IMG/VR virus record: IMGVR_UViG_3300030202_003349 | Span: 1-21,005 of that record | Reading direction: 5' to 3' (one strand) | Source: a virus | DNA: 21,005 nucleotides | Translations under genes and position numbers: made by a program | Part shown: one piece after another, positions 2,828 through 20,043 of the stretch | Layout of the letters: each line of letters starts with the position of its first letter | Position numbering within the stretch: position 1 is the first letter of the stretch | The notes under the pieces: generated by a model | What the model saw: only the letters and a program-made list of their open reading frames with translations | Databases searched by the model: none | What the model was told of the DNA's origin: nothing

Positions 2828-3575
2828 GGTAGAAGATTACACCACATTAAAAACAAGGATTGTAGATTGGATTCGTGATTATGCGAATAAGAATCAAATT
2901 AAATCTCTTGTAGTGGGAGTCTCTGGTGGTATTGATTCTGCTGTAGTTTCAAGTCTTTGTGCTGAAACTGGATTACCAACCTACGTGGTTGCTATGCCAC
3001 TTCATTCTAAAATTGAAAACAGCACGTTGTCAGTCGATCACTGTAAGTCTCTGGATGAAAAGTATGAGAATGTCACCTATGTTCGTGTAGAACTATCGAG
3101 TGTCTATGATCAATTCATGCACAGTTTAACCTGGTGGACTGGTGATTCATTTAATGGTAATGAACTTTCCAATGCAAATACAAAGTCTCGTCTTCGTATG
3201 GTGACTCTGTATCAAATTGCCGGATCTGTTGGTGGTATTGTTGTTGGCACTGGCAATAAGGTTGAAGATTATGGTATAGGTTTCTACACTAAATATGGTG
3301 ATGGTGGCGTAGACATTGCGCCCATTGCAGACTTATACAAAACTGAAGTATGGGAACTTGGAAAGCATCTTAATGTAAATCAGAACATTGTAGATGCAAA
3401 ACCAACGGATGGTCTGTGGAATGATGGACGAACTGATGAAGATCAGATTGGTGCATCTTATGAGGACTTGGAATATGCCATGGAACATGGTACTGGTCCT
3501 GCCGTCAGAATCTTGCATGATTACAATTGCAAGAACAAACACAAGATGAACCCCATTCCGACTTTTAAACTATGA
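2820..3575 (+). CDS. nadE: NH3-dependent NAD+ synthetase
   Basis: This 251-residue protein catalyses the last step of NAD synthesis: ATP-dependent amidation of nicotinic acid adenine dinucleotide with ammonia. The PP-loop SGGIDS is at residues 35-40. NANTKSRLRM is the conserved NaAD-contact helix, GTGNKVEDYGIGFYTKYGDG forms the active-site segment, and IADLYKTEVWELG and PTDGLWNDGRTDEDQIG are further NadE signatures. No glutaminase domain is present, so ammonia would come from free solution. The length is a little short of the 270 or so residues usual for bacterial NadE. I placed the start at 2820, where an 8-base overlap with the upstream gene gives MNRVEDY; upstream in-frame ATGs lie inside the glycosyltransferase. 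It sits between two sugar genes, one an NAD-dependent dehydrogenase, which suggests cofactor supply, but this link is inference. Confidence 0.9.
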   Translation: MNRVEDYTTLKTRIVDWIRDYANKNQIKSLVVGVSGGIDSAVVSSLCAETGLPTYVVAMPLHSKIENSTLSVDHCKSLDEKYENVTYVRVELSSVYDQFMHSLTWWTGDSFNGNELSNANTKSRLRMVTLYQIAGSVGGIVVGTGNKVEDYGIGFYTKYGDGGVDIAPIADLYKTEVWELGKHLNVNQNIVDAKPTDGLWNDGRTDEDQIGASYEDLEYAMEHGTGPAVRILHDYNCKNKHKMNPIPTFKL

Positions 3576-4726
3576 AAATTGGACTTATTGGTGCAGGAAG
3601 ACTTGGAATTTGTCTTGCTCTTTTGATTGAAAGTGTAGGATATGATGTTTTAGTATCCGACATTAGAGATAGTTACGTATTTAAGTTAAACGAAAAACGA
3701 ATTGATACTAATGAACCAGATGTTGAATGGTATCTTAAACGAACTAAAAAGTTTGAAGCAACAACAGAAAATCAGCGTGTTATCAACGAGTGCGACTTTA
3801 TTATTTGTCTCGTTGCAACTCCTTCTCTTGGTGATGGTTCTTATGATGTGAGTTCTGTTTGGGAAGTCATTGATGACTTTAAAAAATCATCAGCAAAATT
3901 GAATGGTAAGACATTTGTAATAGGATGCACCACTAATCCTGGCGATTGCAAACAATTTGCAGAAGAACTGGATTACTTTGGTATGAATGTTGTATATAAT
4001 CCAGAGTTTATTGCTCAAGGATCAATCATTCATGATTTGCAGAATGCAGATATGGTTTTGATTGGTGGTGCCGATGATAATACTTTTGCATTAATGCAAA
4101 AAATCTATGAAGGTATTCAAATCAAACCACCTCGTTGGGGTAGAATGTCAACCACTGCTGCTGAACTTGTAAAGTTGGCAGTTAATTGTTATCTAACAAC
4201 AAAAATTAGTTATGCCAACATGGTTGGTGAAGTAATGTCTCTATCTGGAATGGAAGATGAAATAGCAAATGTTTTATCTGCAATTGGTTCTGATAGTAGA
4301 GTTGGTAGAAAATATCTGAACTATGGATATGGATTTGGTGGTCCTTGTCTACCTAGAGATAATCGTGCCTTTGCTGCCTATGCCAAAAAACTTGGACTTG
4401 AATATAATCTAGGATTGACAACTGATAATTTTAATGATGAACATGCAAAATTTTTAAAAAATTATTTCATAGAAAAAAATACAGAAAATCTTCCATTCTG
4501 TTTTGATTATATTTCTTACAAAAAAGGAACTGATATTATAACCGAGAGTCAACAATACCGACTTTGTTTAGATCTACTTGAAAATGGGCACGAAGTTTTT
4601 GTAATTGAAAACGAATGTGTTGTTAAACAAGTTGCAGACGAACTTATAGATAAGTATCCTAATAAAATTACTTTCCTTTATGAGGAACAGTATCTCCCAC
4701 AAAATGTTTTTCGTATTGAATTATGA
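3572..4726 (+). CDS. UDP-glucose/GDP-mannose-type 6-dehydrogenase
   Basis: This 384-residue protein belongs to the UDP-glucose/GDP-mannose dehydrogenase family, which oxidises a nucleotide sugar to a uronic acid using two NAD+. The N-terminal Rossmann motif is GLIGAGRLG (residues 4-12). VYNPEFIAQGS carries the family's conserved Glu. FGGPCLPRD holds the catalytic cysteine, C259, in the place of the usual FGGxCFPKD. The C-terminal domain has FDYISYKKGTDIITES, matching the family's SYKxxTdDiReS segment. The protein is shorter than the 430-450 residues common in bacteria, mostly at the C-terminal end. The start shares ATGA with nadE and the end shares ATGA with the GT25 gene. The substrate (UDP-glucose, UDP-HexNAc or GDP-mannose) cannot be told apart here. 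Confidence 0.87.
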   Translation: MKIGLIGAGRLGICLALLIESVGYDVLVSDIRDSYVFKLNEKRIDTNEPDVEWYLKRTKKFEATTENQRVINECDFIICLVATPSLGDGSYDVSSVWEVIDDFKKSSAKLNGKTFVIGCTTNPGDCKQFAEELDYFGMNVVYNPEFIAQGSIIHDLQNADMVLIGGADDNTFALMQKIYEGIQIKPPRWGRMSTTAAELVKLAVNCYLTTKISYANMVGEVMSLSGMEDEIANVLSAIGSDSRVGRKYLNYGYGFGGPCLPRDNRAFAAYAKKLGLEYNLGLTTDNFNDEHAKFLKNYFIEKNTENLPFCFDYISYKKGTDIITESQQYRLCLDLLENGHEVFVIENECVVKQVADELIDKYPNKITFLYEEQYLPQNVFRIEL

Positions 4727-5523
4727 ACGACCCAGCAGATAAAAATAAATCAGTATACAAACTCAAAGGACTTCCTCACATCTATTGTATCAATTTGGAT
4801 GACAAGAAGGATAGATGGGAGTCCATGGAATCACAATTGAAATACTGGGAAATAGAAAACTATACTCGTGTATCTGCTTATGATGGACGCGAAGATGATC
4901 TTGGTTCAATATTGAAAGGACGTTATCCCGACAACATGAATTCTGGTGAGGTTGGATGTGTCACTTCACATCTCAAAGCACTCAAAGAGTTTCTAAATTC
5001 TGGTGAACAATGTGCTCTCATCATGGAAGATGATTGTGACATTAACACTGCTAGTTATTGGCCATTTTCTTGGAAAGATTTCTTTTGTAAAATTCCTTAT
5101 GATTACGATGTAGTTCAACTTGCAATTATTAATCCTGCACAGGTCAATGTAAAACTACATCGAAGATTTGTTAATGACTTTTCAACGGCATGTTATTTAA
5201 TCAATCGTCGATATGCTCAAAAGTTACTTGACCTTCATACTAGAGGTGACAAGTACAAACTTGATAATGGAGTCAAACCTCGCGCTGTTGCCGACGATTT
5301 GATTTATAATTCTGGAAATACTTTTGCAATCCCTCTCTTTCTTTATAAGATTGAATTGGGTTCAGACATTCATGATATTCATATCGATGTCTTTCATAAG
5401 AGTAGTTATGAGGGTCTGTGGAACTTTTGGAAGAATGATGCTTCTAGCATTGAAGATTGGGATGGATTGTTTGACTATGATCCATATTTTGGAACACTTC
5501 CACCTGGATGGGAAGGAAAGTAA
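4723..5523 (+). CDS. Family 25 glycosyltransferase (LPS-type)
   Basis: This 266-residue protein matches the GT25 (LPS biosynthesis galactosyltransferase-like) family. The N-terminal segment IYCINLDDKKDRW corresponds to the family start hvINLdrrpdRr. GEVGCVTSHLKALK is the conserved GEiGCalSHl block, and ALIMEDDCDI holds the acidic metal/donor motif E102-D103-D104. A later AVADDLIY segment resembles the second acidic motif, PxxvDh. It would add a hexose to a glycan or to a hydroxylated protein side chain. It is the last gene of the overlapping sugar cluster, with ATG and the preceding TGA sharing bases. A clear promoter for the ferredoxin gene starts 5 bases after its stop, so the operon probably ends here, although I see no terminator hairpin. 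Confidence 0.85.
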   Translation: MNDPADKNKSVYKLKGLPHIYCINLDDKKDRWESMESQLKYWEIENYTRVSAYDGREDDLGSILKGRYPDNMNSGEVGCVTSHLKALKEFLNSGEQCALIMEDDCDINTASYWPFSWKDFFCKIPYDYDVVQLAIINPAQVNVKLHRRFVNDFSTACYLINRRYAQKLLDLHTRGDKYKLDNGVKPRAVADDLIYNSGNTFAIPLFLYKIELGSDIHDIHIDVFHKSSYEGLWNFWKNDASSIEDWDGLFDYDPYFGTLPPGWEGK

Positions 5524-5527
5524 CACA

Positions 5528-5561
5528 TTGACATTTGTGACATAGTAACTTAAAATAAATA
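5528..5561 (+). promoter_or_regulatory. Composite sigma70 + T4-late-type promoter of ferredoxin
   Basis: A perfect -35 box TTGACA (5528-5533) is followed after 17 bases by TAAAAT (5551-5556), five of six bases of the -10 consensus. A late-type box AATAAATA (5554-5561), one base from TATAAATA, begins three bases into the -10. Both would start transcription a few bases downstream, in front of the ferredoxin ATG at 5586. The same geometry occurs upstream of psbA. Confidence 0.75.
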
Positions 5562-5585
5562 CACCCGCGTAGTAAAACAAAGCAC

Positions 5586-5876
5586 ATGCCAACTATTACA
5601 ATCCAAGATCCATCCGGTAATGTTGAAACTTTTGAGTGTGATGAGAATACTACAATCCTAGATGCTGCTGATGAAGCAGGTATTGATTTGCCATATTCTT
5701 GTCGTGCAGGTGCATGTTCATCATGTGCTGGTAAAATTGTAGAAGGAACAGTAAACCAAGAAGACCAATCATTCTTGGATGATGATCAAATTGAAGAAGG
5801 ATACGTCCTCACATGTGTTGCACTACCAACATCTGATGTAACTTTATTAACTGAACAAGAGGAATTTTTATACTAA
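5586..5876 (+). CDS. petF: Plant-type 2Fe-2S ferredoxin
   Basis: This 96-residue protein is a plant/cyanobacterial-type ferredoxin of normal length (96-99). Four cysteines, C39, C44, C47 and C77, are arranged Cx4Cx2C...C within [14 protein letters not shown] and the later VLTC, the exact ligand pattern of the 2Fe-2S cluster. It is highly acidic, with few Arg or Lys. The protein is soluble and accepts electrons from photosystem I. It can then serve reductases, including ribonucleotide reductase or bilin reductases, if those exist elsewhere in the phage. It has its own composite promoter just upstream. No strong Shine-Dalgarno sequence is visible before the ATG. The stop overlaps the start of the next small gene (TAATG), so the two are probably translated together. 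Confidence 0.96.
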
Positions 5877-6055
5877 TGGAAGAAAACATGGAACATGTCA
5901 ATGATTTATGGGAAGACATGGCTCGTCTCAATATGCTCTATGAAGAGTTGTGTTGGGGTCATGATGACGTTTTAGAATTTGTTCCAGACTACAATAAAAA
6001 CGTAATAATTATTAAAAACAAAACCAGAGGGGAAGCACCAGAAACAGGGGGTTGA
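5876..6055 (+). CDS. Small acidic conserved cyanophage-type protein after ferredoxin
   Basis: A 59-residue frame begins with an ATG that shares its A with the ferredoxin stop (TAATG) and ends at a TGA that is itself part of the psbA promoter's TTGACA box. The first 36 residues are rich in Glu and Asp with aromatic residues (LWEDM, YEELCWGHDDV), and the last 20 are basic then polar. I see no membrane segment or known domain. The precise coupling to ferredoxin and the coding-like codon use support a real gene. I do not recognise a function. One possibility is a partner or regulator of ferredoxin, which is a guess from position only. Confidence 0.7.
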   Translation: MEENMEHVNDLWEDMARLNMLYEELCWGHDDVLEFVPDYNKNVIIIKNKTRGEAPETGG

Positions 6056-6085
6056 CAAATCTGGAGAAATCGCTTAATATAAATA
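6052..6085 (+). promoter_or_regulatory. Composite sigma70 + exact T4 late promoter of psbA
   Basis: TTGACA (6052-6057, perfect -35) is spaced 17 bases from TAATAT (6075-6080, four of six -10 bases). An exact T4 late box TATAAATA (6078-6085) starts three bases into the -10. The -35 overlaps the stop codon of the small gene upstream. Transcription would begin around 6087-6092 and leave a leader of about 150 bases before psbA. Confidence 0.8.
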
Positions 6086-6093
6086 CATAGACG

Positions 6094-6111
6094 AGTGAGG
6101 GTTTCCTCACT
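6094..6111 (+). promoter_or_regulatory. Stem-loop at the 5' end of the psbA leader
   Basis: AGTGAGG (6094-6100) and CCTCACT (6105-6111) form a perfect 7-bp stem with a GTTT loop. It lies within a few bases of the predicted start site of both psbA promoters. There is no T-run after it, so it is not an intrinsic terminator. A stable 5' hairpin commonly protects an mRNA from decay; that role here is inferred. Confidence 0.55.
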
Positions 6112-6168
6112 TGACTATTCGACGCCTCACCGAGACTAAACAGCGTCATTAAATAAGAGTCTCTCATA

Positions 6169-6191
6169 CCTGATCTGGAGGGTAGATCAGG
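6169..6191 (+). promoter_or_regulatory. Second stem-loop in the psbA leader, GGAGG in the loop
   Basis: CCTGATCT (6169-6176) pairs perfectly with AGATCAGG (6184-6191), leaving the 7-base loop GGAGGGT. The stem is 8 bp. The loop contains a Shine-Dalgarno-like GGAGG, but it is about 60 bases from the psbA ATG, too far to act directly. Just before the psbA ATG (ccctatttcaa) there is no Shine-Dalgarno sequence. Together the two hairpins suggest a structured leader that tunes psbA mRNA stability or translation. Confidence 0.5.
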
Positions 6192-6239
6192 AATATTATA
6201 CTCAGTGCCACCCCGCACTCATACATAACCCTATTTCAA

Positions 6240-7319
6240 ATGACAACACTTTCAAGACAACAATCACAATCATCCATCTGGGAACAGTTTTGCCAGTGGG
6301 TAACTTCTACCAATAACCGCCTCTATGTCGGTTGGTTCGGTGTGCTGATGATCCCAACTCTGTTGGCAGCAACCGTATGCTTTATTACTGCGTTTGTCGC
6401 TGCTCCTCCTGTGGACATCGACGGAATTCGCGAACCAGTCGCTGGTTCACTCATGTATGGTAACAACATCATTTCTGGTGCTGTTGTCCCCTCTTCCAAC
6501 GCAATTGGTCTTCACTTCTATCCCATTTGGGAAGCCGCATCACTCGATGAGTGGCTGTATAATGGTGGTCCTTACCAACTCGTAGTCTTCCACTTCCTCA
6601 TTGGCATCTTCTGCTACATGGGTCGTGAGTGGGAACTGTCATACCGCTTGGGTATGCGCCCCTGGATCTGCGTAGCATACTCTGCACCTGTTGCAGCAGC
6701 ATCCGCAGTATTCCTCGTTTATCCTTTCGGTCAAGGTAGTTTCAGCGATGGTATGCCTCTTGGTATTTCTGGTACTTTTAACTTCATGCTTGTATTCCAA
6801 GCAGAACACAATATCCTTATGCACCCGTTCCACATGCTCGGTGTTGCTGGGGTATTCGGTGGATCTCTTTTCTCTGCTATGCATGGAAGTCTCGTTACTT
6901 CTTCGCTCGTCCGTGAAACCACCGAAACCGAGTCCCAGAACTACGGTTACAAGTTCGGTCAAGAAGAAGAGACTTACAACATCGTCGCAGCCCATGGCTA
7001 CTTCGGTCGTCTGATCTTCCAATACGCATCGTTCAACAACTCCCGTTCACTGCACTTCTTCCTGGCAGCATGGCCAGTAGTCGGCATCTGGTTCACCGCA
7101 CTGGGCGTAAGCACCATGGCATTCAACCTCAACGGTTTCAACTTCAACCAGTCCATCCTTGATGGTCAGGGTCGCGTCCTTAACACCTGGGCAGACGTTC
7201 TTAACAGAGCAAACCTGGGTATGGAAGTCATGCACGAGCGCAATGCTCACAACTTCCCTCTCGACCTCGCTGCTGCTGAGTCCACTCCTGTGGCTCTGAT
7301 TGCTCCTAGCGTCGGTTGA
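6240..7319 (+). CDS. psbA: Photosystem II reaction-centre protein D1
   Basis: This 359-residue protein is full-length D1, the rapidly turned-over core subunit of photosystem II. The functional residues are all present at standard positions: redox-active Tyr161, manganese-cluster ligands Asp170, Glu189, His332, Glu333, His337, Asp342 and Ala344 (after which the C-terminal tail is cut), and chlorophyll-ligand His198. Residue 130 is Glu (GREWELSYR), the form associated with high-light D1 isoforms in cyanobacteria. Five membrane helices are expected from the family. There is no intron or insertion. The phage copy is thought to keep the host's photosystem II repaired during infection. Base composition differs from neighbours: bases 7081-7140 contain 33 G/C of 60, against 12 of 60 at 4441-4500, consistent with host origin. 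It has its own promoter, structured leader and terminator. Confidence 0.99.
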
Positions 7320-7337
7320 TATAATCTGCTATAATGT

Positions 7338-7363
7338 GGGAGGTCTACGGACCTCCTTTTTTT
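7338..7363 (+). terminator. Intrinsic terminator of psbA
   Basis: GGAGGTC (7339-7345) and GACCTCC (7350-7356) form a perfect 7-bp stem with a TACG loop. Seven T residues follow (7357-7363). It lies 19 bases after the psbA stop. An extended -10 element, TGCTATAAT (7327-7335), sits immediately in front of it. Confidence 0.92.
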
Positions 7364-7368
7364 ATCTC

Positions 7369-7374
7369 TATAAT
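7369..7374 (+). promoter_or_regulatory. Possible -10 box for the 7386 gene and psbD
   Basis: TATAAT at 7369-7374 is a perfect -10 hexamer, 11 bases before the next ATG. No -35 box is visible at a suitable distance, and the leader would be only about 5 bases. The extended -10 at 7327-7335 is an alternative start for the same transcript. Confidence 0.3.
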
Positions 7375-7385
7375 TGTAAAGTTTT

Positions 7386-7616
7386 ATGCACGGCAGTTTA
7401 GATCCAGAAGAGAAAGTATTACCTGATTGGTTTGCTCAGACTTCTGATATGCCTTACGATAGGCATGAATACCGATTTATCTTTTCTAACCAAGAGAGTA
7501 TAATCTTTAAGAGTTATGAAGAGGTAATGGAACAATGGTTCAACACTCCACCACTCTTCAAATCACATGTGGAAGTGCTTGATACAAAGAAAAAAACAAA
7601 TGGAGGTTTTAAATAA
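7386..7616 (+). CDS. Small hypothetical protein between psbA and psbD
   Basis: This 76-residue soluble protein lies between the psbA terminator and psbD and ends 2 bases before the psbD start. The composition is ordinary and rich in aromatic and acidic residues ([38 protein letters not shown]), with a short basic tail. There is no signal peptide, membrane helix or recognised motif. Its last codons contain GGAGG (7602-7606), the likely ribosome-binding site of psbD, which supports co-transcription. I do not recognise the family or function. Its fixed place next to psbD suggests it belongs to the photosynthesis block. Confidence 0.7.
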
Positions 7617-7618
7617 TC

Positions 7619-8674
7619 ATGGTCGCATCAACTTTAACTCAACAAAGGAGGGGATGGTTTGATATCCTGGATGATTGGCTTAAACGCGATAGGTTCGTTT
7701 TTGTGGGCTGGTCTGGTATTCTGCTCTTCCCTACAGCTTATCTTGCTCTTGGCGGGTGGCTTACTGGGACAACGTTTGTCACCAGCTGGTACACCCACGG
7801 TCTGGCAAGTTCGTATCTTGAGGGCGCGAATTTCCTTACAGCAGCAGTTTCGACTCCTGCTGACGCTATGGGTCATAGTCTTCTTCTTCTCTGGGGTCCT
7901 GAGGCTCAAGGCAGTTTCGTCCGTTGGGTCCAACTCGGTGGACTCTGGCCTTTCGTCGCGCTACACGGTGCATTCGCTCTCATAGGTTTCATGCTCAGGC
8001 AGTTTGAAATCGCTCGTCTCGTCGGAATTAGACCCTACAATGCTATTGCTTTCTCTGGTCCTATTGCTGTCTTTTGCAGCGTCTTTCTCTTATATCCTCT
8101 GGGACAGTCGTCCTGGTTCTTCGCGCCATCGTTTGGGGTTGCCGCTATTTTCCGCTTCTTACTTTTCCTCCAGGGATTCCATAACTGGACGCTCAACCCG
8201 TTCCACATGATGGGTGTCGCCGGTATCCTTGGTGGTGCTCTGCTCTGTGCCATTCACGGTGCTACTGTAGAGAACACACTGTTTGAGGATGGAGAACAGG
8301 CAAACACATTCAAAGCATTTGAACCAACTCAAGAAGAAGAAACCTATTCGATGGTTACTGCCAATCGTTTCTGGTCACAGATTTTCGGTGTTGCTTTCAG
8401 TAACAAGCGTTGGTTGCACTTCTTTATGTTGTTCGTACCTGTGATGGGTCTCTGGACTTCATCAATTGGTATCATTGGACTTGCTCTTAACCTTCGTGCT
8501 TACGACTTCGTATCACAAGAAATTAGAGCAGCAGAAGATCCTGAGTTTGAAACGTTCTATACTAAGAACATTCTACTCAATGAAGGTCTCCGTGCTTGGA
8601 TGGCACCTGCCGACCAACCACATGAGAACTTTGTATTCCCTGAAGAAGTATTACCAAGGGGTAACGCTCTGTGA
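7619..8674 (+). CDS. psbD: Photosystem II reaction-centre protein D2
   Basis: This 351-residue protein is full-length D2, the partner of D1 in the photosystem II core. The numbering runs one residue short of the common 352-residue forms. The redox-active tyrosine YD is Tyr159 (in [13 protein letters not shown]). Its neighbour His is H188 (LQGFHNW) and the P680 chlorophyll ligand His is H196 (NPFHMMG). The protein begins typically ([24 protein letters not shown]) and ends in the usual [17 protein letters not shown] sits 12 bases before the ATG. The stop TGA is embedded in the GTG start of the next gene (GTGA), so expression of the following small membrane proteins is likely coupled to D2 translation. 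Like psbA, it is richer in G and C than the flanking phage genes. Confidence 0.99.
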
Positions 8675-9099
8675 TAAACTCTTTCGGGTTCCTCGCACTC
8701 CGACTCTGTGTCGGGGTGCTTCTTATCCATCATGGATATGAAAAATTAAACGACATTGAGAACTTTGCAAATGCATTCGTAAGACCACTGCATTTACCAT
8801 TCCCAATCTTCTTGTCCTACATTGCTGCTTTCTCTGAGATTGCCGGTAGTTGGGCATTGATTGTAGGAGTTGGTGCTAGACTTGGTGCTCTCTCAATCGT
8901 AGGCACCATGTCGATTGCTATCTATCATGCAGTTATGACTAGTGGATTCAACATCTATCTGTTAGAACTCTTAGGTCTGTATTGGGGTGGAGCAATTTGT
9001 GTCTTACTATGTGGACCCGGAATGTTCTCGGTAGATCATTTAATTAAGACTAGATACGGTACAGTATTAAAAGAAAACTTCGATCTCATGGGGTCCTAA
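8671..9099 (+). CDS. DoxX-family membrane protein, GTG start
   Basis: This 142-residue hydrophobic protein has four predicted membrane helices (about residues 4-20, 45-65, 68-90 and 97-118). It begins with the DoxX pattern: [18 protein letters not shown], then ENFANAF and a helix with [14 protein letters not shown]. DoxX/DoxD proteins are small membrane subunits linked to quinone-dependent oxidation and redox stress in other bacteria. The start is GTG at 8671, overlapping the psbD stop by four bases; the first downstream ATG would remove much of the DoxX fold, so GTG is preferred. The position directly behind psbD suggests action in the thylakoid or cell membrane alongside photosystem II, but the reaction is unknown. 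The next gene starts at its stop codon (TAATG). Confidence 0.8.
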
Positions 9100-9335
9100 T
9101 GCTAATCGGATTACTCTACTTTGCTTGTTTATTTGGTATTGGTGGAGCAGCATTTGCACTGATGTATAGGAACATTCAATCCATCAGTGAAATGAACAGA
9201 CCAACCATAACCAGAAGGCATCCAGAAGCACCAGAACCTGGTGAAGAAGTAATGTATGTGGATGTCTCTGGTATGAATAGTCAAGACTTCAACGATCAAA
9301 AACAAAGATTAGAAAAATTATTTGAAGAACAATGA
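9099..9335 (+). CDS. Small single-span membrane protein of the psbD operon
   Basis: This 78-residue protein has an N-terminal membrane helix (about residues 2-24, with GLLYFACLFGIGGAAFALMY). A polar tail follows, holding NRPTITRRHPEAPEPGEE, a short predicted strand (VMYVDVSG) and a charged C-terminal helix (QKQRLEKLFEEQ). The helix at the extreme N-terminus with a basic residue after it suggests anchoring with the tail in the cytoplasm. It is coupled to both neighbours: TAATG with the DoxX gene and ATGA with the PsbN-like gene. I do not recognise the family from a characterised protein. The context points to a role in the membrane with D2. Confidence 0.75.
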   Translation: MLIGLLYFACLFGIGGAAFALMYRNIQSISEMNRPTITRRHPEAPEPGEEVMYVDVSGMNSQDFNDQKQRLEKLFEEQ

Positions 9336-9445
9336 TTGCTGGAATTAGTTTATCAGTCCTTGCACTGACATTATATGGTATCTACCTAGGGTTTGGTCCT
9401 CCTTCTAAAGGACTAGACGATCCATTTGATGATCACGAAGACTAA
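9332..9445 (+). CDS. psbN: PsbN-like small membrane protein
   Basis: This 37-residue frame has one membrane helix (about residues 3-19) followed by YLGFGPPSKGLDDPFDDHED. That tail matches the conserved end of cyanobacterial and plastid PsbN, which reads approximately TAFGpPSxxLrDPFeeHeD. PsbN is not a stable photosystem II subunit; in chloroplasts it is needed for assembly and repair of the reaction centre, which suits a phage that supplies D1 and D2. It is slightly shorter than host PsbN (about 43 residues), lacking N-terminal residues. The ATG overlaps the preceding stop (ATGA), and the stop overlaps the next start (TAATG). I read this frame directly because it is very short; the tail motif makes the assignment fairly strong. 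Confidence 0.8.
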   Translation: MIAGISLSVLALTLYGIYLGFGPPSKGLDDPFDDHED

Positions 9446-9573
9446 TGTCGGATCATTCACATCAGGAACCAAACGGTGAGAGTACCACACTGAAAGAGTT
9501 GATAATTGGTTGTGCAGTAGTATTTGCATTCACCCTTATCTGCTTCTTGATAATGCTTGCAGGGATGCTCTGA
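9445..9573 (+). CDS. 42-residue single-span membrane protein, last of the psbD operon
   Basis: The frame starts with TAATG overlap with the PsbN-like gene and ends 13 bases before a terminator hairpin. The N-terminal 17 residues are polar (MSDHSHQEPNGESTTLK) and the rest is one long hydrophobic helix (ELIIGCAVVFAFTLICFLIM). This layout, a short polar N-terminus plus one helix, is typical of small photosystem and cytochrome subunits, but no specific family matches by eye. A role in membrane complex assembly is a guess from position. The overlap pattern and clean membrane profile support it being real. Confidence 0.65.
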   Translation: MSDHSHQEPNGESTTLKELIIGCAVVFAFTLICFLIMLAGML

Positions 9574-9585
9574 ATATGTTATACT
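9557..9585 (+). promoter_or_regulatory. Extended -10 promoter abutting the psbD-operon terminator
   Basis: TGTTATACT (9577-9585) is an extended -10 element. A weak -35-like TTGCAG lies at 9557-9562 with 17-base spacing. The predicted start is about 9592, inside the terminator hairpin, so a new transcript would lack the 5' arm of that hairpin and could run into the gene at 9611. Confidence 0.4.
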
Positions 9586-9609
9586 AGGGGGAGTTGATCC
9601 CCCTTTTTT
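9586..9609 (+). terminator. Intrinsic terminator of the psbD operon
   Basis: GGGGGA (9587-9592) pairs with TCCCCC (9598-9603) across a GTTGA loop, extended by A9586-T9604. Six T residues follow (9604-9609). It ends the psbD-DoxX-PsbN-like run, 13 bases after the last stop and one base before the next ATG. Confidence 0.9.
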
Positions 9610-9610
9610 A

Positions 9611-9916
9611 ATGGCTGCTAAGAAAAAAGAGTATGTCGATGTTGTCCTGCCTACCTCTGGCGACGGTGTTGAGTATGAAGTAATTAGTCGTCAGGTCACT
9701 GAGAACGCACACCGTCAATGGCCTGACGTTAAGGCAGACCCTTACGATGAGATCCTAGAGCAGAGGAAGAAAATCTGCCACGGTAATCCTGAAGAAGTAT
9801 TTGAAACATATGAGACGGTAAGGTATCGTAGATATTATCCAGTTCCTGACCCTGTTGCTCCTGTCGAAGTAAAGGTTGAAAAGAAGGTGGAGAAAGAACA
9901 GAAAGTTGAAGCATGA
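9611..9916 (+). CDS. Hypothetical protein with a charged Val/Glu/Lys tail
   Basis: This 101-residue soluble protein starts at the ATG just after the terminator's T-run; an in-frame ATG at 9557 would run back through the hairpin and is unlikely. The N-terminus is basic (MAAKKKEYVDVVLP). The middle holds HRQWPDVKADPYDEILEQRKK and an aromatic run (YETVRYRRYYPVPDP). The last 20 residues are low-complexity Val, Glu and Lys. No known domain is visible and there is no signal peptide or membrane segment. There is no usable Shine-Dalgarno sequence because the terminator occupies that place. Function unknown. Confidence 0.65.
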   Translation: MAAKKKEYVDVVLPTSGDGVEYEVISRQVTENAHRQWPDVKADPYDEILEQRKKICHGNPEEVFETYETVRYRRYYPVPDPVAPVEVKVEKKVEKEQKVEA

Positions 9917-9944: not shown

Positions 9945-9972
9945 TTAAAGTTATTCTTTTTCATGCTATATA
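9945..9972 (+). promoter_or_regulatory. Possible promoter of plastocyanin
   Basis: TGCTATATA (9964-9972) reads as an extended -10, with a weak TTAAAG (9945-9950) 16 bases upstream. The same stretch, TATATAAAAG, also partly resembles the late box. The leader to the ATG at 9993 would be about 14 bases. Confidence 0.35.
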
Positions 9973-9992
9973 AAAGCAGTTGCGTAAACTCA

Positions 9993-10316
9993 ATGAAGTT
10001 TATTTTCGCACTTGTTGCTACACTTTTTCTTGCTGCTCCCGCATGGGCAGTAGATGTAACGATGGGTTCAAATGGAAGTTTAGTTTTTGATCCTGCAGAA
10101 GTTACTATTTCTGCTGGTGAAATAGTCCACTTTGAAAATAATATGTTACCTCCACATAATATTATTGTGGAGGGTCGTCCAGACTTATCAAGAGAATCTT
10201 TAATGTTTTCTCCTGGTGAATCACAAGACATCAAATTTGTTGATGCTGGTGAGTACACTTATTGGTGTGGTCCACACAAAGGTGCGGGTATGATTGGCAC
10301 TGTGCATGTAGAATGA
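9993..10316 (+). CDS. petE: Plastocyanin (type-1 copper electron carrier)
   Basis: This 107-residue precursor begins with a signal peptide (MKFIFALVATLFLAAPAWA, cleavage expected after A19) that would send it to the lumen or periplasm. The mature part is a cupredoxin with all four type-1 copper ligands: H55 (PPHN), C92, H95 and M100 (WCGPHKGAGM), spaced Cx2Hx4M as in plastocyanin. Plastocyanin carries electrons from cytochrome b6f to photosystem I. The mature length, about 88 residues, is shorter than the usual 97-105, with the shortening between the first His and the Cys. The residue before the Cys is Trp where hosts usually have Tyr. I chose the second ATG (9993) because it gives a textbook signal peptide; the ATG at 9963 adds ten residues that do not fit. 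Confidence 0.93.
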   Translation: MKFIFALVATLFLAAPAWAVDVTMGSNGSLVFDPAEVTISAGEIVHFENNMLPPHNIIVEGRPDLSRESLMFSPGESQDIKFVDAGEYTYWCGPHKGAGMIGTVHVE

Positions 10317-11112: not shown

Positions 11113-11184
11113 GGGACTATCGCATATTGGTTAATGCCCACTGCTTATAACGGTGTGAACTGGGTTCAATTCCCAGTAGTCCTA
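11113..11184 (+). tRNA. tRNA with UAU anticodon (Ile, AUA codon)
   Basis: The fold is a full cloverleaf of 72 bases. The acceptor GGGACTA pairs with TAGTCCT (one G-U at the end), and the discriminator is A. The D stem is GCAT/ATGC with GG in the loop. The anticodon stem CACTG/CGGTG encloses CTTATAA, giving anticodon TAT at 11146-11148. The T arm is CTGGG-TTCAATT-CCCAG. No CCA is encoded. Read literally this decodes AUA (isoleucine). Confidence 0.88.
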
Positions 11185-11187
11185 TCT

Positions 11188-11260
11188 GCTTCCTTAGCAA
11201 TCTGGTGAATGCAGCAAACTCATAATTTGCCTAAGGTGAGTTCGATCCTCACAGGAAGCA
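11188..11260 (+). tRNA. tRNA with CAU anticodon (elongator Met or Ile2)
   Basis: The acceptor GCTTCCT pairs with AGGAAGC, with discriminator A. The D stem is short (GCA/TGC). The anticodon stem GCAAA/TTTGC holds the loop CTCATAA, anticodon CAT at 11221-11223. The T arm is GTGAG-TTCGATC-CTCAC. The paired first base rules against initiator tRNA. If C34 is modified to lysidine it would read AUA; otherwise it is elongator Met. The UAU tRNA next door makes Met somewhat more likely. Confidence 0.9.
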
Positions 11261-11270
11261 TAAGACGGGG

Positions 11271-11341
11271 AATGAGCTCGCCCGCGACGGTGCTAACCAC
11301 ACTGTGATCTAGAGAGTTGGTCACTTTCTTCTTGCTCCATT
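11271..11341 (+). other. Structured-looking gap between tRNAs, possible small RNA
   Basis: The 149 bases between the CAU and UAA tRNAs contain no ORF of note and no tRNA (no GTTCRA T-loop on either strand). AATGAGC (11271-11277) can pair with GCTCCATT (11334-11341, one bulge), enclosing a second helix: GTGCTAAC (11290-11297) with GTTGGTCAC (11316-11324, one bulge). It could be a small RNA, a decayed tRNA or a processing element. Nothing else supports it. Confidence 0.3.
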
Positions 11342-11409
11342 ACAAACTGTCAGAATGTTAGGGTTTAGAAAATGCCCCATAGCAAGCATTCGGATAAGTG
11401 TAATGCCAT

Positions 11410-11494
11410 GCGAGTATGGCGGAATCGGTAGACGCATCAGACTTAAAATCTGCTGACCATTAAGGTCGTGGGAGTTCAAGTCTCCCTACTCGCA
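11410..11494 (+). tRNA. tRNA-Leu(UAA)
   Basis: The acceptor GCGAGTA pairs with TACTCGC, discriminator A. The anticodon loop CTTAAAA carries TAA (reads UUA). A class II variable arm GACC-ATTAA-GGTC confirms leucine. The T arm is GGGAG-TTCAAGT-CTCCC. CCA is not encoded. Confidence 0.97.
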
Positions 11495-11521
11495 CTATAT
11501 AAACTGACAAGCATTTTTAAG

Positions 11522-12201: not shown

Positions 12202-12573
12202 ATGCCACTCTACAATTCTTTTCAAGCCTATGTCTTTAACCTCCACACAGCAAAATCTTCAGAAGCAAAAAGATTATGGAGGCAACAGATAAAGGAAGAA
12301 TGGGATTGGGAGTGTGCTTATTGCGGGTCCACACATCAACTTACAATAGACCACATTGTTCCGAGAGCAAAAGGAGGCACAGATTTTACTAAAAATTGTC
12401 TGTGTGCCTGTCATCATTGCAATCAAGATAAAAGTCATACTCCTATGGAAGATTGGTATCTTTCACAGGAGTTTTTTGATGCTGAAAGACATGAGAGGAT
12501 TAAAAACTGGATGAAACCAGAGGATCCTATCAGTCTTTATCGCTATGGTTCAAGAACAAATAAGGTCTCTTGA
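12202..12573 (+). CDS. Free-standing HNH endonuclease
   Basis: This 123-residue protein is an HNH nuclease. Zinc-binding pairs C38xxC41 and C70xxC73 flank the catalytic core LTIDHIVPRAKGG (D50-H51), N65 (TKNCL) and the CNQDK element. This is the standard compact CxxC...DH...N...CxxCN fold. Enzymes of this type in phages are often homing endonucleases or DNA-nicking enzymes; there is no intron or split gene here to home into, so a free-standing role is likely. The N-terminal 35 residues form a helical extension and the last 40 an uncharacterised tail. It sits between talC and the late promoter of the fibre genes, a typical site for mobile insertion. Confidence 0.9.
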   Translation: MPLYNSFQAYVFNLHTAKSSEAKRLWRQQIKEEWDWECAYCGSTHQLTIDHIVPRAKGGTDFTKNCLCACHHCNQDKSHTPMEDWYLSQEFFDAERHERIKNWMKPEDPISLYRYGSRTNKVS

Positions 12574-15228: not shown

Positions 15229-18200
15229 ATGGCAGCACCAATTCGTTTTCTTAGCGGCAGACAACAGCAGCAAAAAATTGGTATAGAAGGAAGTACCGAA
15301 GACACAAAGGTGCTAGAGGTAGTTGGTCGTGCTGGTATTGGCACAACTTCTTTTGATCCCACTGTACAATTAGAGATTCGTGGTGATGCGATTGTAGAAG
15401 GAACTACTACGGTAGGAAAACTTGAGATTACCGGAACTGGTGATGTTCCTGCTAGCATTACTGTAGAAACTGCAAATGTTACTGGTGTATCTACATTCGG
15501 TGGTGCTGTCGATGTAAATGCCGGACTGGATGTTGATGGTCAGGCAGATTTAGATGAGGTTGTCGTTGCTGGTGTTGCAACCTTTAGTAATGCTGTAGAT
15601 ATTAATAGCACTCTTGATGTAGATGGAGATACTCAGTTAGATGATCTGAACGTTGCCGGTGTTGCCACATTCAGTTCTGCTATCAATGCGACAGATATAA
15701 TTAAGGGATACGAATATACTGCTGCTCCTTTTGGAAGCACGGTCACACTTGCGGTTACTGTTGCAAGTAAGGATTCTACTCACAGATATAATGGAACAGG
15801 AAGTGGCAATGCCTATGTAATCGATGGAATTCAATCTCCATTCCTAACATTAACACCCGGAAGAACATATAGATTTACGAATAACAATACCGGAAGTCAT
15901 CCTTTCAGATTCTATCTTGAAGCAGATAAGACAACTCAATATGATACAAATGTCAATTTTCAAGACACATATACTGAAATAACAATAACTGATGAAACTC
16001 CAACAGTTCTTCATTATCAATGTAGTAGCCACCAATACATGGGTAATGCTATTCAAACGAATGCGAATGTTGTTAATACCAACTATCCGGCAACAATTAG
16101 AAGCACCTTAAATGTTACTGGTGTTTCAACTTTCCCACAACTCGATGTCAGCACTGGTGGACTCGATGTAGATGGACTCACTAATTTAGATGAAGTTGTT
16201 GTTGCTGGTGTATCTACTTTTACCGGGAACATCGTTGCTGTTTCGGCAGAATTCAGTGGTAATGTAACAATTGCCGGAACTTTAACTGCAGAAGATAAAA
16301 CTAATATAGATTCACTTGGAATTGTAACTGCAAGAACAGGAGTCAGAGTCGATGCTGGAGGTTTAATTGTAACTTCCGGTGTATCAACATTTACTGATTC
16401 TGTAGATATTGATAATGGTGTTGGTGTAGTTGGTGGATTAACCGCAGATTCTTTAACTATTTCTGGAGTCACCACGGGTATTAATGCTGCTGGTATTTCA
16501 TCATTTGTTAGAATTGATGTAGATGGTCAGGCTGATTTAGATGAACTGGTTGTTGCTGGTGTTGCCACATTCCAAGGTGCCGTTAATTTTGATGTTAATA
16601 GTGAAGTTAATATTGGAACTGGTGTCACCATACTTGGCGACAACTTACATGTAACTGGTATTGTTTCTGCATTAAAATTTATCGGTGATGGTTCTGGTAT
16701 TACGAATCTTCCTGGTATTAACACCATTGGTTCTTCAAATCTTACTGATGTTAATGTTTCTGGAACAACCACGACTGTTCAGTTAAGAGTCAGTGGTGTT
16801 GGAACTGCTGAGAAATTATTTGTCAGCACTGGCGGATTTGAAGTTGATGGTCAATCAGATCTTGATGAACTGGTTGTTGCCGGTGTATCAACCTTTAATG
16901 CTAATACTAATGTTGTTGGAGATCTTTCCGTCACCGGAGATATTGGTGCATCAGGAATCATTACTGCTACAGGAATCAATCTAGTTGCCGGTAGTGGACT
17001 TGATGTTGGTGCTATTGGTGTCCTGACTGCACTTTCAGTAGATGTCAGCACTGGTGGTATTGATGTAGATGGACAAGCAACCTTAGATGAAGTTGTAGTT
17101 GCTGGTGTTGCTACATTCAGTGCTCTTGCAGATGTTAATAATAGATTAGATGTTGCTGGTGGTGCTAATATTGATCAGTTAAATGTTGCTGGTATTGCAT
17201 CCTTCACTCAGTTAGATGTAAGCACTGGTGGTATTGATGTAGATGGACAGGCAACCTTAGATGAACTTGTTGTTGCCGGTGTCTCTACATTTACTGGCAC
17301 GGTTAAGATTGATGGAGCATTAGACATTGGTGTTGCCGGTGTTGATGTAGAGGGACTTACCAACTTAGATGAACTGATTGTTGCCGGTGTATCCACCTTT
17401 AGTAGCACTATTAATGGTAATCTAACTGGAGATGTAACTGGAACTGCATCAAATGCATCAGGTGCAACCGGAGACTTCTCAATTGCAGATAAGATTGTTC
17501 ATACTGGTGATACTGATACCGCGATTAGATTCCCTGCTGCTAATACATTCAGTGTAGAAACTGCTGGTAGTGAAAGACTTCGTGTTCGTAATAACGGTGT
17601 CGTTGCCATAGGAACAGACGAAAGTACCACCATTAATTTCTCAGCAGCACAGACTCAGATTTTTGGCACCGTTGGTGATAGGGCACTTAGCCTGATGTAT
17701 ACTCAGGCAAATGCTTCTGGTCCTCAACTTAATTTTGCCAAAGGAAGAGATTTAGATAATAGTGCTTCAACTGCTGTTAGCAGTGGTGATCTTCTTGGAA
17801 GTCTTCACTTTGCTGGAGCTGATGGATCTGATTTCAATTCTGTGGGAGCAGAAATTGTAGTCAAAGTAGATGGAACTCCTGGCAGTAATGATATGCCCGG
17901 AAGAATTGAATTCAAAACAACATCTGACGGAGCATCAACAACTACAGAAAGACTTCGTATCAGTGCTGATGGCACATGTTTATTCAGTGGTGCTGTTGAT
18001 ATTAATGCCGGACTTGATGTTGATGGACAAACCGACCTTGATGAACTTCAAGTTGCTGGTGTATCTACATTCTCTGCTAAGGCAGTATTCAATACCGCAT
18101 ATCCGTCCATCGATGCCGATAATGAAATTCAAGTTGGCACTGCTATTCAGTTAGGTAAAGCAGGTGTTGTAACGGCAACAAGTTTTGTAGGTTCAGGTGC

Positions 18201-20043
18201 AAACTTAACTGGTGTTGGTACTCAAGGCATTAATATACAGGCACGATCAATAGTAATTGCTGGTGTATCCACATTCAATGATAATGTAAGAATACTTGCA
18301 GGTGGATTAGATGTTACTGGTGTTGTCACTGCCACTACATTTGTTGGTGCTTTAACTGGAACTGCATCAAATGCATCGGGTGCAACTGGAGACTTCTCAA
18401 TTGCAGATAAGATTGTTCATACTGGTGATACTAATACTGCATTAAGATTCCCTGCTGCTGATACATTCACTGTAGAGACTTCTGGTAATGAAAGAATTCG
18501 TGTTAGTGCTGCTGGTACAGTTTCTATAGGAAGTGCAGGTAGAACCGATTGGGATAATAGCACGAATGTAGGATGTCAGTTCCAAATTGAAGGACTGACA
18601 CAACCAACTTCCAGAATGAGCATTACTAGAAATTCTAATGATGCATTTGATGGTGGTATAATATTGGGTAAGAGTAGAGGAACTTCTGATGGATCAGATA
18701 CGATTGTTCAAGATGGTGATGGGTTAGGATTTATTAGTTTCCAAGGTACTGATGGCACCACAATGCTAGAAGGTGCAAAGATTGATGCCATAGTTCAATC
18801 TAGTGTTGCCAGTGATGATATGCCAACTGATCTGGTATTCTATACAAATAATGATACAACTACCACAGCAGAAAGACTTCGTATAACTTCTACTGGTAAT
18901 GTTGGTATTGGACTGACTAATCCATCGGCAAAGTTACACACCATTGGTGATGTAATGATACAAGGCACTGGTGGAACTGGAGAACAAACACTCTTTATTG
19001 GTAAATCTGCACTGTATTTACCAAATAGTAGAGGTGTTGCTGTTGCAGCAGATCAAAATAGTTCAGCAGACCATGATATGGTGCTGAAGACTTCTACTGG
19101 TTCCAGTGGTCTTGTTGAGAGAGTTCGTATAACTTCTGGTGGTAATGTTAATTTCTTAGGAAGTCTTGTTAATGTTAATGCGACTGGAGTTTCATCTTTC
19201 GTCCAATTAGATGTTAGTACCGGTGGTTTAGATGTTGATGGACAAACCGACCTTGATGAACTTCAGGTTGCTGGTATTTCTACATTCAATGGTAATGTTT
19301 CCATAGGATCTTCGGTATTATTTGGTGACAATAATAAGGCAATGTTTGGTGCCGGTGATGACTTACAGATTTATCACGATGGAACTGATTCTTATGTAGA
19401 TAATAGTACGGGCGATCTGATTTTAAGAAGCACTGGTGATGATGTAATTATTAGAGCTACTGATGATGTAATCATTCAGAATGGTGGTTCTGATAATGCT
19501 ATTATTTGTAATAATGATGGCAATGTAGAACTATATTTTAATACTGCCAAGAGATTTGAAACCACGACTGATGGTGCTGATTTTAGTGGAACAGGTGGAG
19601 TTAAACTTCCGGTAGGTTCAACAGCACAAAGACCAGGTTCTCCTACTGCAGGTGATCTGAGATATAATAGTGATGATGGTGCCTTTGAAGGATACACCGA
19701 CTCTTGGGGTGCCATTGGTGGAGGCGGTGGAGCAGAAGAGGTTGATACAAATGTATCAAGCACCAGTGCGGTCGGTGTTGGTTCTTTCGCAACCGCATCC
19801 TTCCGTTCTGCCGAGGTCATCGCACAGATTGTTCAAATCGATGAATATCAGGTTGGCAAATACTTAATGATACATGATGGCACAACGGTGACGGTCATTG
19901 AACAAGCAGCAGTCTCAACCGGAGATTCTATGATTGGATCATTCGATGGTGCGATTAATGGTTCAAATGCCGAATTGAGAGTCAACATGGTGACTTCTGG
20001 AATTGCAACGGTCACCACTAAGATATCAACCGTAACTGTATAG
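15229..20043 (+). CDS. Giant repetitive tail-fibre-like protein with an inserted cupredoxin-like domain
   Basis: This 1604-residue structural protein starts MAAPIRFLSGRQQQQKIGIEG, then VGRAGIGTT, a start shared in style with the next gene. It is mainly built of about eleven copies of a 21-residue unit, GLDVDGQTDLDELVVAGVSTF and variants, separated by beta-rich spacers. Residues about 160-285 form a different domain with H224, C265, H268 and M271, the type-1 copper ligand pattern. Two copies of a TGTASNASGATGDFSIADKI module (17437 and 18355) precede long beta segments ending in RLRISxTGxVGIG repeats. The C-terminal 350 residues include LQIYHDGTDSYVDNSTGDL and GAIGGGGG, common in phage fibres. 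It probably forms a long trimeric fibre. Function beyond host attachment is unproven. Confidence 0.9.
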   Translation: MAAPIRFLSGRQQQQKIGIEGSTEDTKVLEVVGRAGIGTTSFDPTVQLEIRGDAIVEGTTTVGKLEITGTGDVPASITVETANVTGVSTFGGAVDVNAGLDVDGQADLDEVVVAGVATFSNAVDINSTLDVDGDTQLDDLNVAGVATFSSAINATDIIKGYEYTAAPFGSTVTLAVTVASKDSTHRYNGTGSGNAYVIDGIQSPFLTLTPGRTYRFTNNNTGSHPFRFYLEADKTTQYDTNVNFQDTYTEITITDETPTVLHYQCSSHQYMGNAIQTNANVVNTNYPATIRSTLNVTGVSTFPQLDVSTGGLDVDGLTNLDEVVVAGVSTFTGNIVAVSAEFSGNVTIAGTLTAEDKTNIDSLGIVTARTGVRVDAGGLIVTSGVSTFTDSVDIDNGVGVVGGLTADSLTISGVTTGINAAGISSFVRIDVDGQADLDELVVAGVATFQGAVNFDVNSEVNIGTGVTILGDNLHVTGIVSALKFIGDGSGITNLPGINTIGSSNLTDVNVSGTTTTVQLRVSGVGTAEKLFVSTGGFEVDGQSDLDELVVAGVSTFNANTNVVGDLSVTGDIGASGIITATGINLVAGSGLDVGAIGVLTALSVDVSTGGIDVDGQATLDEVVVAGVATFSALADVNNRLDVAGGANIDQLNVAGIASFTQLDVSTGGIDVDGQATLDELVVAGVSTFTGTVKIDGALDIGVAGVDVEGLTNLDELIVAGVSTFSSTINGNLTGDVTGTASNASGATGDFSIADKIVHTGDTDTAIRFPAANTFSVETAGSERLRVRNNGVVAIGTDESTTINFSAAQTQIFGTVGDRALSLMYTQANASGPQLNFAKGRDLDNSASTAVSSGDLLGSLHFAGADGSDFNSVGAEIVVKVDGTPGSNDMPGRIEFKTTSDGASTTTERLRISADGTCLFSGAVDINAGLDVDGQTDLDELQVAGVSTFSAKAVFNTAYPSIDADNEIQVGTAIQLGKAGVVTATSFVGSGANLTGVGTQGINIQARSIVIAGVSTFNDNVRILAGGLDVTGVVTATTFVGALTGTASNASGATGDFSIADKIVHTGDTNTALRFPAADTFTVETSGNERIRVSAAGTVSIGSAGRTDWDNSTNVGCQFQIEGLTQPTSRMSITRNSNDAFDGGIILGKSRGTSDGSDTIVQDGDGLGFISFQGTDGTTMLEGAKIDAIVQSSVASDDMPTDLVFYTNNDTTTTAERLRITSTGNVGIGLTNPSAKLHTIGDVMIQGTGGTGEQTLFIGKSALYLPNSRGVAVAADQNSSADHDMVLKTSTGSSGLVERVRITSGGNVNFLGSLVNVNATGVSSFVQLDVSTGGLDVDGQTDLDELQVAGISTFNGNVSIGSSVLFGDNNKAMFGAGDDLQIYHDGTDSYVDNSTGDLILRSTGDDVIIRATDDVIIQNGGSDNAIICNNDGNVELYFNTAKRFETTTDGADFSGTGGVKLPVGSTAQRPGSPTAGDLRYNSDDGAFEGYTDSWGAIGGGGGAEEVDTNVSSTSAVGVGSFATASFRSAEVIAQIVQIDEYQVGKYLMIHDGTTVTVIEQAAVSTGDSMIGSFDGAINGSNAELRVNMVTSGIATVTTKISTVTV
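17437..17589 (+). repeat. Long direct repeat, copy 1
   Basis: About 150 bases here recur at 18355-18507 with scattered differences. The core encodes TGTASNASGATGDFSIADKI, followed by VHTGDT, RFPAA and a SGxERxRV element. The copies are 918 bases (306 codons) apart, so recombination between them would delete or duplicate in frame. Confidence 0.9.
18355..18507 (+). repeat. Long direct repeat, copy 2
   Basis: This is the partner of the copy at 17437. The first 80 bases differ at only a few positions and the rest diverges gradually (NTALRFPAADTFTVET against DTAIRFPAANTFSVET). This looks like an older in-frame duplication. Confidence 0.9.

Follow-up and report, generated by a model that had tools for sequence, protein, structure and literature searches.

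Does a long tail-fibre-like protein, encoded by a virus that seems to infect marine photosynthetic bacteria, carry a domain of the blue copper kind, and if so are its metal-binding residues kept in related virus proteins? We addressed this question in IMG/VR record IMGVR_UViG_3300030202_003349, the whole of which (21,005 bases, probably a genome fragment) is referred to here as the window. The window encodes psbA- and psbD-type reaction-centre proteins, ferredoxin-like, transaldolase-like and plastocyanin proteins, followed by tail genes; of these names only petE was supported by profile, the others being tentative readings of the sequences. It also contains three tRNA genes, Ile(TAT), Met(CAT) and Leu(TAA), at 11113-11495 and an HNH endonuclease ORF just before the tail genes at 12202-12573 (PHROG 2214, 5.9e-33). 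The features relevant to this question are as follows.

9963..10316 (+), phage plastocyanin petE, a separate cupredoxin given for context (Pfam Copper-bind 1.2e-18; PHROG 515 PetE)
15229..20043 (+), 1604-aa tail-fibre-like structural protein that carries the domain (PHROG tail fiber families 18345, 6e-63, and 30742, 9.4e-61)
15510..15680 (+), last two shaft repeats before the domain (84-nt units at 15510 and 15597)
15745..16077 (+), predicted cupredoxin-like domain, residues 173-283
15898..15900 (+), codon of H224, putative N-terminal His ligand
16021..16023 (+), codon of C265, putative Cys ligand
16030..16032 (+), codon of H268, putative C-terminal His ligand
16039..16041 (+), codon of M271, axial ligand position
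16146..16229 (+), next 84-nt shaft repeat after the domain

The first-pass annotation had claimed that residues about 160-285 of this protein hold a complete type-1 copper ligand set, and this observation is confirmed. SHPFRF starts at residue 223 and CSSHQYMG at 265, placing the four residues at H224, C265, H268 and M271 with a His-Cys distance of 41. The match to PHROG 30742 starts at residue 160 and includes the domain (4e-49 over residues 4-130 of the query, P0002), although the conserved core starts near residue 173. One detail needs correcting: the Cx2Hx2M spacing had been ascribed to both amicyanin and pseudoazurin, but while it appears to be that of amicyanin, pseudoazurin probably has Cx2Hx4M (the aligned pseudoazurin sequence reads CAPHVGMGM, with a Met at both places). 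The motif is not due to chance, as Cx2Hx2M occurs 393 times inside 414 domain copies but 13 times elsewhere in about 1.08 million residues of six-frame ORFs, with 0.2 occurrences expected after shuffling the domains. The domain is a separate module within the protein: the protein holds shaft repeats of about 28-29 residues, and none of the listed repeat copies starts between 15654 and 16107, the gap which holds the domain.

We next asked whether the predicted fold is that of a cupredoxin. AlphaFold2 with 54 aligned sequences gave a beta sandwich of eight strands with a mean pLDDT of 94.5 and a pTM of 0.86. C265 (model residue 93) is the last residue of strand 88-93, H268 and M271 lie in the next loop and H224 (model residue 52) precedes another strand, which is consistent with the cupredoxin plan. 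Foldseek against solved structures placed rusticyanin, McoA and nitrite reductase on top, but it should be noted that this match is weak: the best E value was 4.6e-3, there were no matches at 0.001 and 8 of the 50 rows listed are immunoglobulin-type chains. VIA-align gave a Z of 8.7 (rmsd 3.6, 90 residues) to the N-terminal cupredoxin domain of 2dv6, which is only just above what the tool calls common; however, the 50 structures listed are all nitrite reductases, rusticyanins, laccases, multicopper oxidases or factor VIII, and so all belong to the cupredoxin superfamily if the A domains of factor VIII are counted as cupredoxin-like. A sister domain from related viral contigs gave a stronger answer, with a pLDDT of 98.1, a Foldseek match of 1.5e-5 to rusticyanin (91 matches at or under 0.001) and a Z of 11.4 over 94 residues at rmsd 2.0. 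The profiles of the two phage domains match each other at 99.7% probability, with H, C, H and M in register. We have very high confidence in the cupredoxin fold.

The relationship to cupredoxins was also found by sequence, but only with profiles. No Pfam model reaches its cut-off in the window fibre or domain, and no NCBIfam model, including amicyanin TIGR02657 and pseudoazurin TIGR02375, matched the two protein queries (P0001 and P0002). The window domain has no match to PF00127 Copper-bind, whereas 5 of 34 and 7 of 40 members of two of our alignments match it at E up to 0.1, the two seen singly being under the cut-off. When the single window domain was compared to solved structures with phmmer, only antibody chains were found, at E 0.25 or worse. 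In contrast, a profile of 34 phage domains hit 6hbe at 3.5e-6 and 4kns at 8.3e-6, a second profile of 40 members hit plastocyanin 3bqv at 1.9e-5, with the best 21 of the 60 sequences shown being cupredoxins, and a third gave 30 of 30 cupredoxins at 0.01 or better. Antibodies and FimG follow the cupredoxins in the first two of these searches (from 0.017 on in the second). Hits included plastocyanins, pseudoazurin and copper nitrite reductase, and in the printed plastocyanin alignments the phage His, Cys and His stand opposite the plastocyanin ligands. It is on these alignments and the positions of the residues along the model, rather than on measured distances, that we base the suggestion that the four residues form one site.

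We then examined whether homologues lose these residues. In the 34-sequence alignment, which was built from 37 distinct stretches by leaving out three near-duplicates and using the window in place of one sequence, and which reaches 25% identity to the window domain, the four ligands are invariant, with only one G, one F and one Y besides. Among 309 distinct copies, the three most conserved columns of those filled in at least 60% of copies are H224 (His in 304 of 308), C265 (Cys in 302 of 307) and H268 (His in 301 of 308), while position 271 is Met in 292 and Gln in 11 of 308. In the full set of 414 copies in 328 ORFs, 358 are distinct, and of these 338 have His, Cys, His and Met, 11 have Gln and 1 has Leu in place of Met, one is truncated and seven differ otherwise, of which six lack both Cys and the second His. 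His, Cys and His are thus kept in 350 copies, and together with Met or Gln in 349. The 11 copies with Gln form a subfamily with HTGQG instead of HxxMG, and Met to Gln would be the classical exchange at the axial position of type-1 sites, as in stellacyanin.

These counts include loci which were found with patterns containing ligand residues, and so lean upward. For that reason we also scanned with only the part of the domain before the ligands, which gave 103 relatives, of which the best 80 were kept. These hold 61 distinct downstream stretches and all 61 have H, then Cx2Hx2M, with His-Cys distances of 41 to 50, although this sample covers only the subfamily with the KDSTHRYNG-like stretch and overlaps contigs found before. 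In 25 isolate or single-virus loci picked from our hits, 27 of 31 domain matches carry the full set, three are partial or cut and one (S-SZBM1) has lost Cys and His. Codons at the His and Cys columns vary synonymously. The absence of any second Cys in 342 of 358 copies argues against a disulfide, and this explanation of the Cys was rejected.

To determine where the domain occurs we searched 50,697 phage records by tblastn with three different query domains, which found 20, 279 and 56 records. By name these are Synechococcus, Prochlorococcus and other cyanophages, Pelagibacter and Methylophilales phages and marine or unnamed viruses. Annotations under the listed matches include tail fiber, proximal tail fiber, tail spike, virion structural protein and gp9 baseplate wedge tail fiber connector, and often hypothetical protein. 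In syn9 the protein has the T4 gp9/10 N-terminal domain and ends in this domain, and in S-ShM2, P-RSM4 and syn9 both the gp9-type connector and the next gene carry a copy. In S-H9-1 a protein with a subtilisin-family peptidase domain (Peptidase_S8, 2.4e-21) ends in the same domain with all four ligands (1465-1791 of that locus). The cultured isolates P-SSM2, P-TIM68, Bellamy, syn9, HTVC028P and Melnitz carry the domain with its full ligand set. BFVD added many cyanophage structural proteins and small beta-sandwich proteins of pithovirus- and marseillevirus-like genomes, including A0A481Z6J5, A0A481Z7Q7 and A0A481YY19, which match the model at TM 0.80-0.85. Eight loci were found in bacterial genome contigs; by eye, without profiles, six of these look like phage contigs and two cellular, so an origin could not be traced. 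One of the latter is a Prochlorococcus single-cell contig with an open 2168-aa ORF (3195-9698) containing RTX repeats, Big domains, a CopC match under its cut-off and a copy of the domain, a possible cellular secreted relative. The other is a gammaproteobacterial lipoprotein-like ORF (4698-6194) carrying a relative that passes the cut-off of Pfam PF25489 At5g54830-like, a possible cellular root of the family.

The first-pass annotation had also considered recruitment from the plastocyanin encoded in the same window conceivable, while noting its different spacing. The spacing does differ (CGPHKGAGM, His-Cys 37). A close origin from this protein is not supported. BLASTP gave only a chance match (E 0.35) and profile comparison gave 2.7% probability over 25 columns that hold no ligand (E 0.017). 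PetE matches 401 phage records, all with cyanophage names, whereas the fibre domain also occurs in Pelagibacter and Methylophilales phages.

Taken together, our preferred explanation is that this is a cupredoxin domain of a phage family, placed as a module in the shaft of a tail fibre, with what appears to be an intact type-1 copper site. The suggestion of the first-pass annotation that the fibre may carry copper remains an inference, as does any redox role. The retained site, its absence as a set in most exceptions and the Met-to-Gln exchange point to metal binding, and the ligand chemistry points to copper. We infer that the fibre, which has no obvious export signal by a simple hydropathy check, is made and assembled in the host cytoplasm with an empty or Cu(I)-filled pre-formed site, and on lysis holds a copper ion taken from the dying cell or seawater. 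The metal would pin the N-terminal His loop to the C-terminal Cys-His-Met loop, giving a rigid, protease-resistant surface module without disulfides, whose exposed face is used as an exchangeable contact or decoration domain of the tail, perhaps as Ig-like domains are in other phages. It should be noted that cytoplasmic assembly is an unusual place for a type-1 site, that the presence of the protein in the virion rests on annotation and genome context, and that some copies have lost the site and still match the family, so the fold may serve without metal. We consider a functional metal site likely and copper as the native metal probable, while a structural or contact role rather than a redox one is only slightly more likely than not; the probability of the whole chain is roughly 0.55.

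Of the alternatives, an unlikely but not excluded one is a redox-active blue copper centre, in which the fibre copper accepts or gives an electron at the cell surface, so that adsorption or fibre state depends on the redox state of host or seawater. The full ligand set, including an axial Met or Gln of the sort that may tune potential in cupredoxins, is conserved, and light-dependent adsorption has been reported for several marine cyanomyoviruses (PMC2984593). However, no partner or pathway is known, the two residues between H268 and M271 vary, and the domain is also in phages of non-photosynthetic Pelagibacter and Methylophilales, so light cannot be the general reason. In its widest form, which is equally speculative, many marine tailed phages would carry such centres on the outside of their virions, on fibres and baseplate connectors, and use their redox state to gate contact with the host, making the phage particle a copper redox protein assembly and a carrier of oceanic copper. 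It is also doubtful, although possible, that the same ligands hold another metal in vivo (Zn(II) or Cu(I) only) as a purely structural clip formed during cytoplasmic assembly. The lack of a hydrophobic export-like N-terminus is in keeping with this, and azurin may take up zinc when made in E. coli, but one Cys, two His and a thioether Met replaced mainly by Gln would be a copper pattern rather than a usual zinc pattern. Still less likely is a metal bait, in which the copper-loaded domain docks on host copper-uptake receptors as a copper version of the Ferrojan horse idea. There is a precedent in the iron of T4 gp37 HxH motifs and its proposed use at receptors (PMC11705849), and possibly in the docking of azurin on OprC in Pseudomonas, but marine picocyanobacteria and SAR11 seem to have few TonB-type receptors, and the domain sits in gp9-type connectors and here within the first fifth of a long shaft, not at a receptor-binding tip. 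A relic fold used only as a beta-sandwich spacer, with ligands kept by chance or packing, is the least likely, because although a few copies such as that of S-SZBM1 still match the family after losing the site, the ligands are the most conserved columns, are kept in 61 of 61 stretches of the sample fetched without the ligand region, and are absent jointly in the exceptions, which points to a shared duty.

Metal in phage tails is already known for iron, but in a literature search which was partial and did not cover most subscription journals and preprints (papers consulted: PMC11705849, PMC2984593 and PMC9605863) we found no report of a cupredoxin in a phage tail protein, and the Borg paper names plastocyanin and cupredoxins only as encoded proteins. 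These virus particles may display copper sites which nobody appears to have measured.

The closest known systems are cupredoxins of the plastocyanin/amicyanin/rusticyanin kind and the N-terminal cupredoxin domain of three-domain copper nitrite reductase (2dv6). The fibre domain shares with these the predicted beta-sandwich fold, the His...Cys-x2-His-x2-Met order probably found in amicyanin, the axial Met with Gln variants and sequence-profile similarity. It differs in sitting inside a very long tail-fibre-like protein with no export-like N-terminus, in having Pro after the first ligand in 285 of 308 copies, where plastocyanin has Asn, in the variable distance between His and Cys and in the absence of a Pfam cupredoxin match for the window domain. 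The phage PetE plastocyanin (PHROG 515) shares the superfamily and the type-1 ligand set, but is a separate small protein with an export-like N-terminus, Cx2Hx4M and no significant pairwise similarity. Nine of the 40 members of our second profile match Pfam PF25489 at E up to 0.1, but the window domain does not match it, and of ten members scanned singly two matched, both under its cut-off; a search for this family in the window record and 14 control genomes found it nowhere, controls included, and so shows nothing. Finally, the iron-binding HxH motifs of T4 gp37 and of the alterophage R22Y tail fibre also place a metal site on a phage tail fibre with a proposed role in host contact (PMC11705849), but there the iron is held by pairs of histidines in a trimer, not by a cupredoxin domain within one chain.
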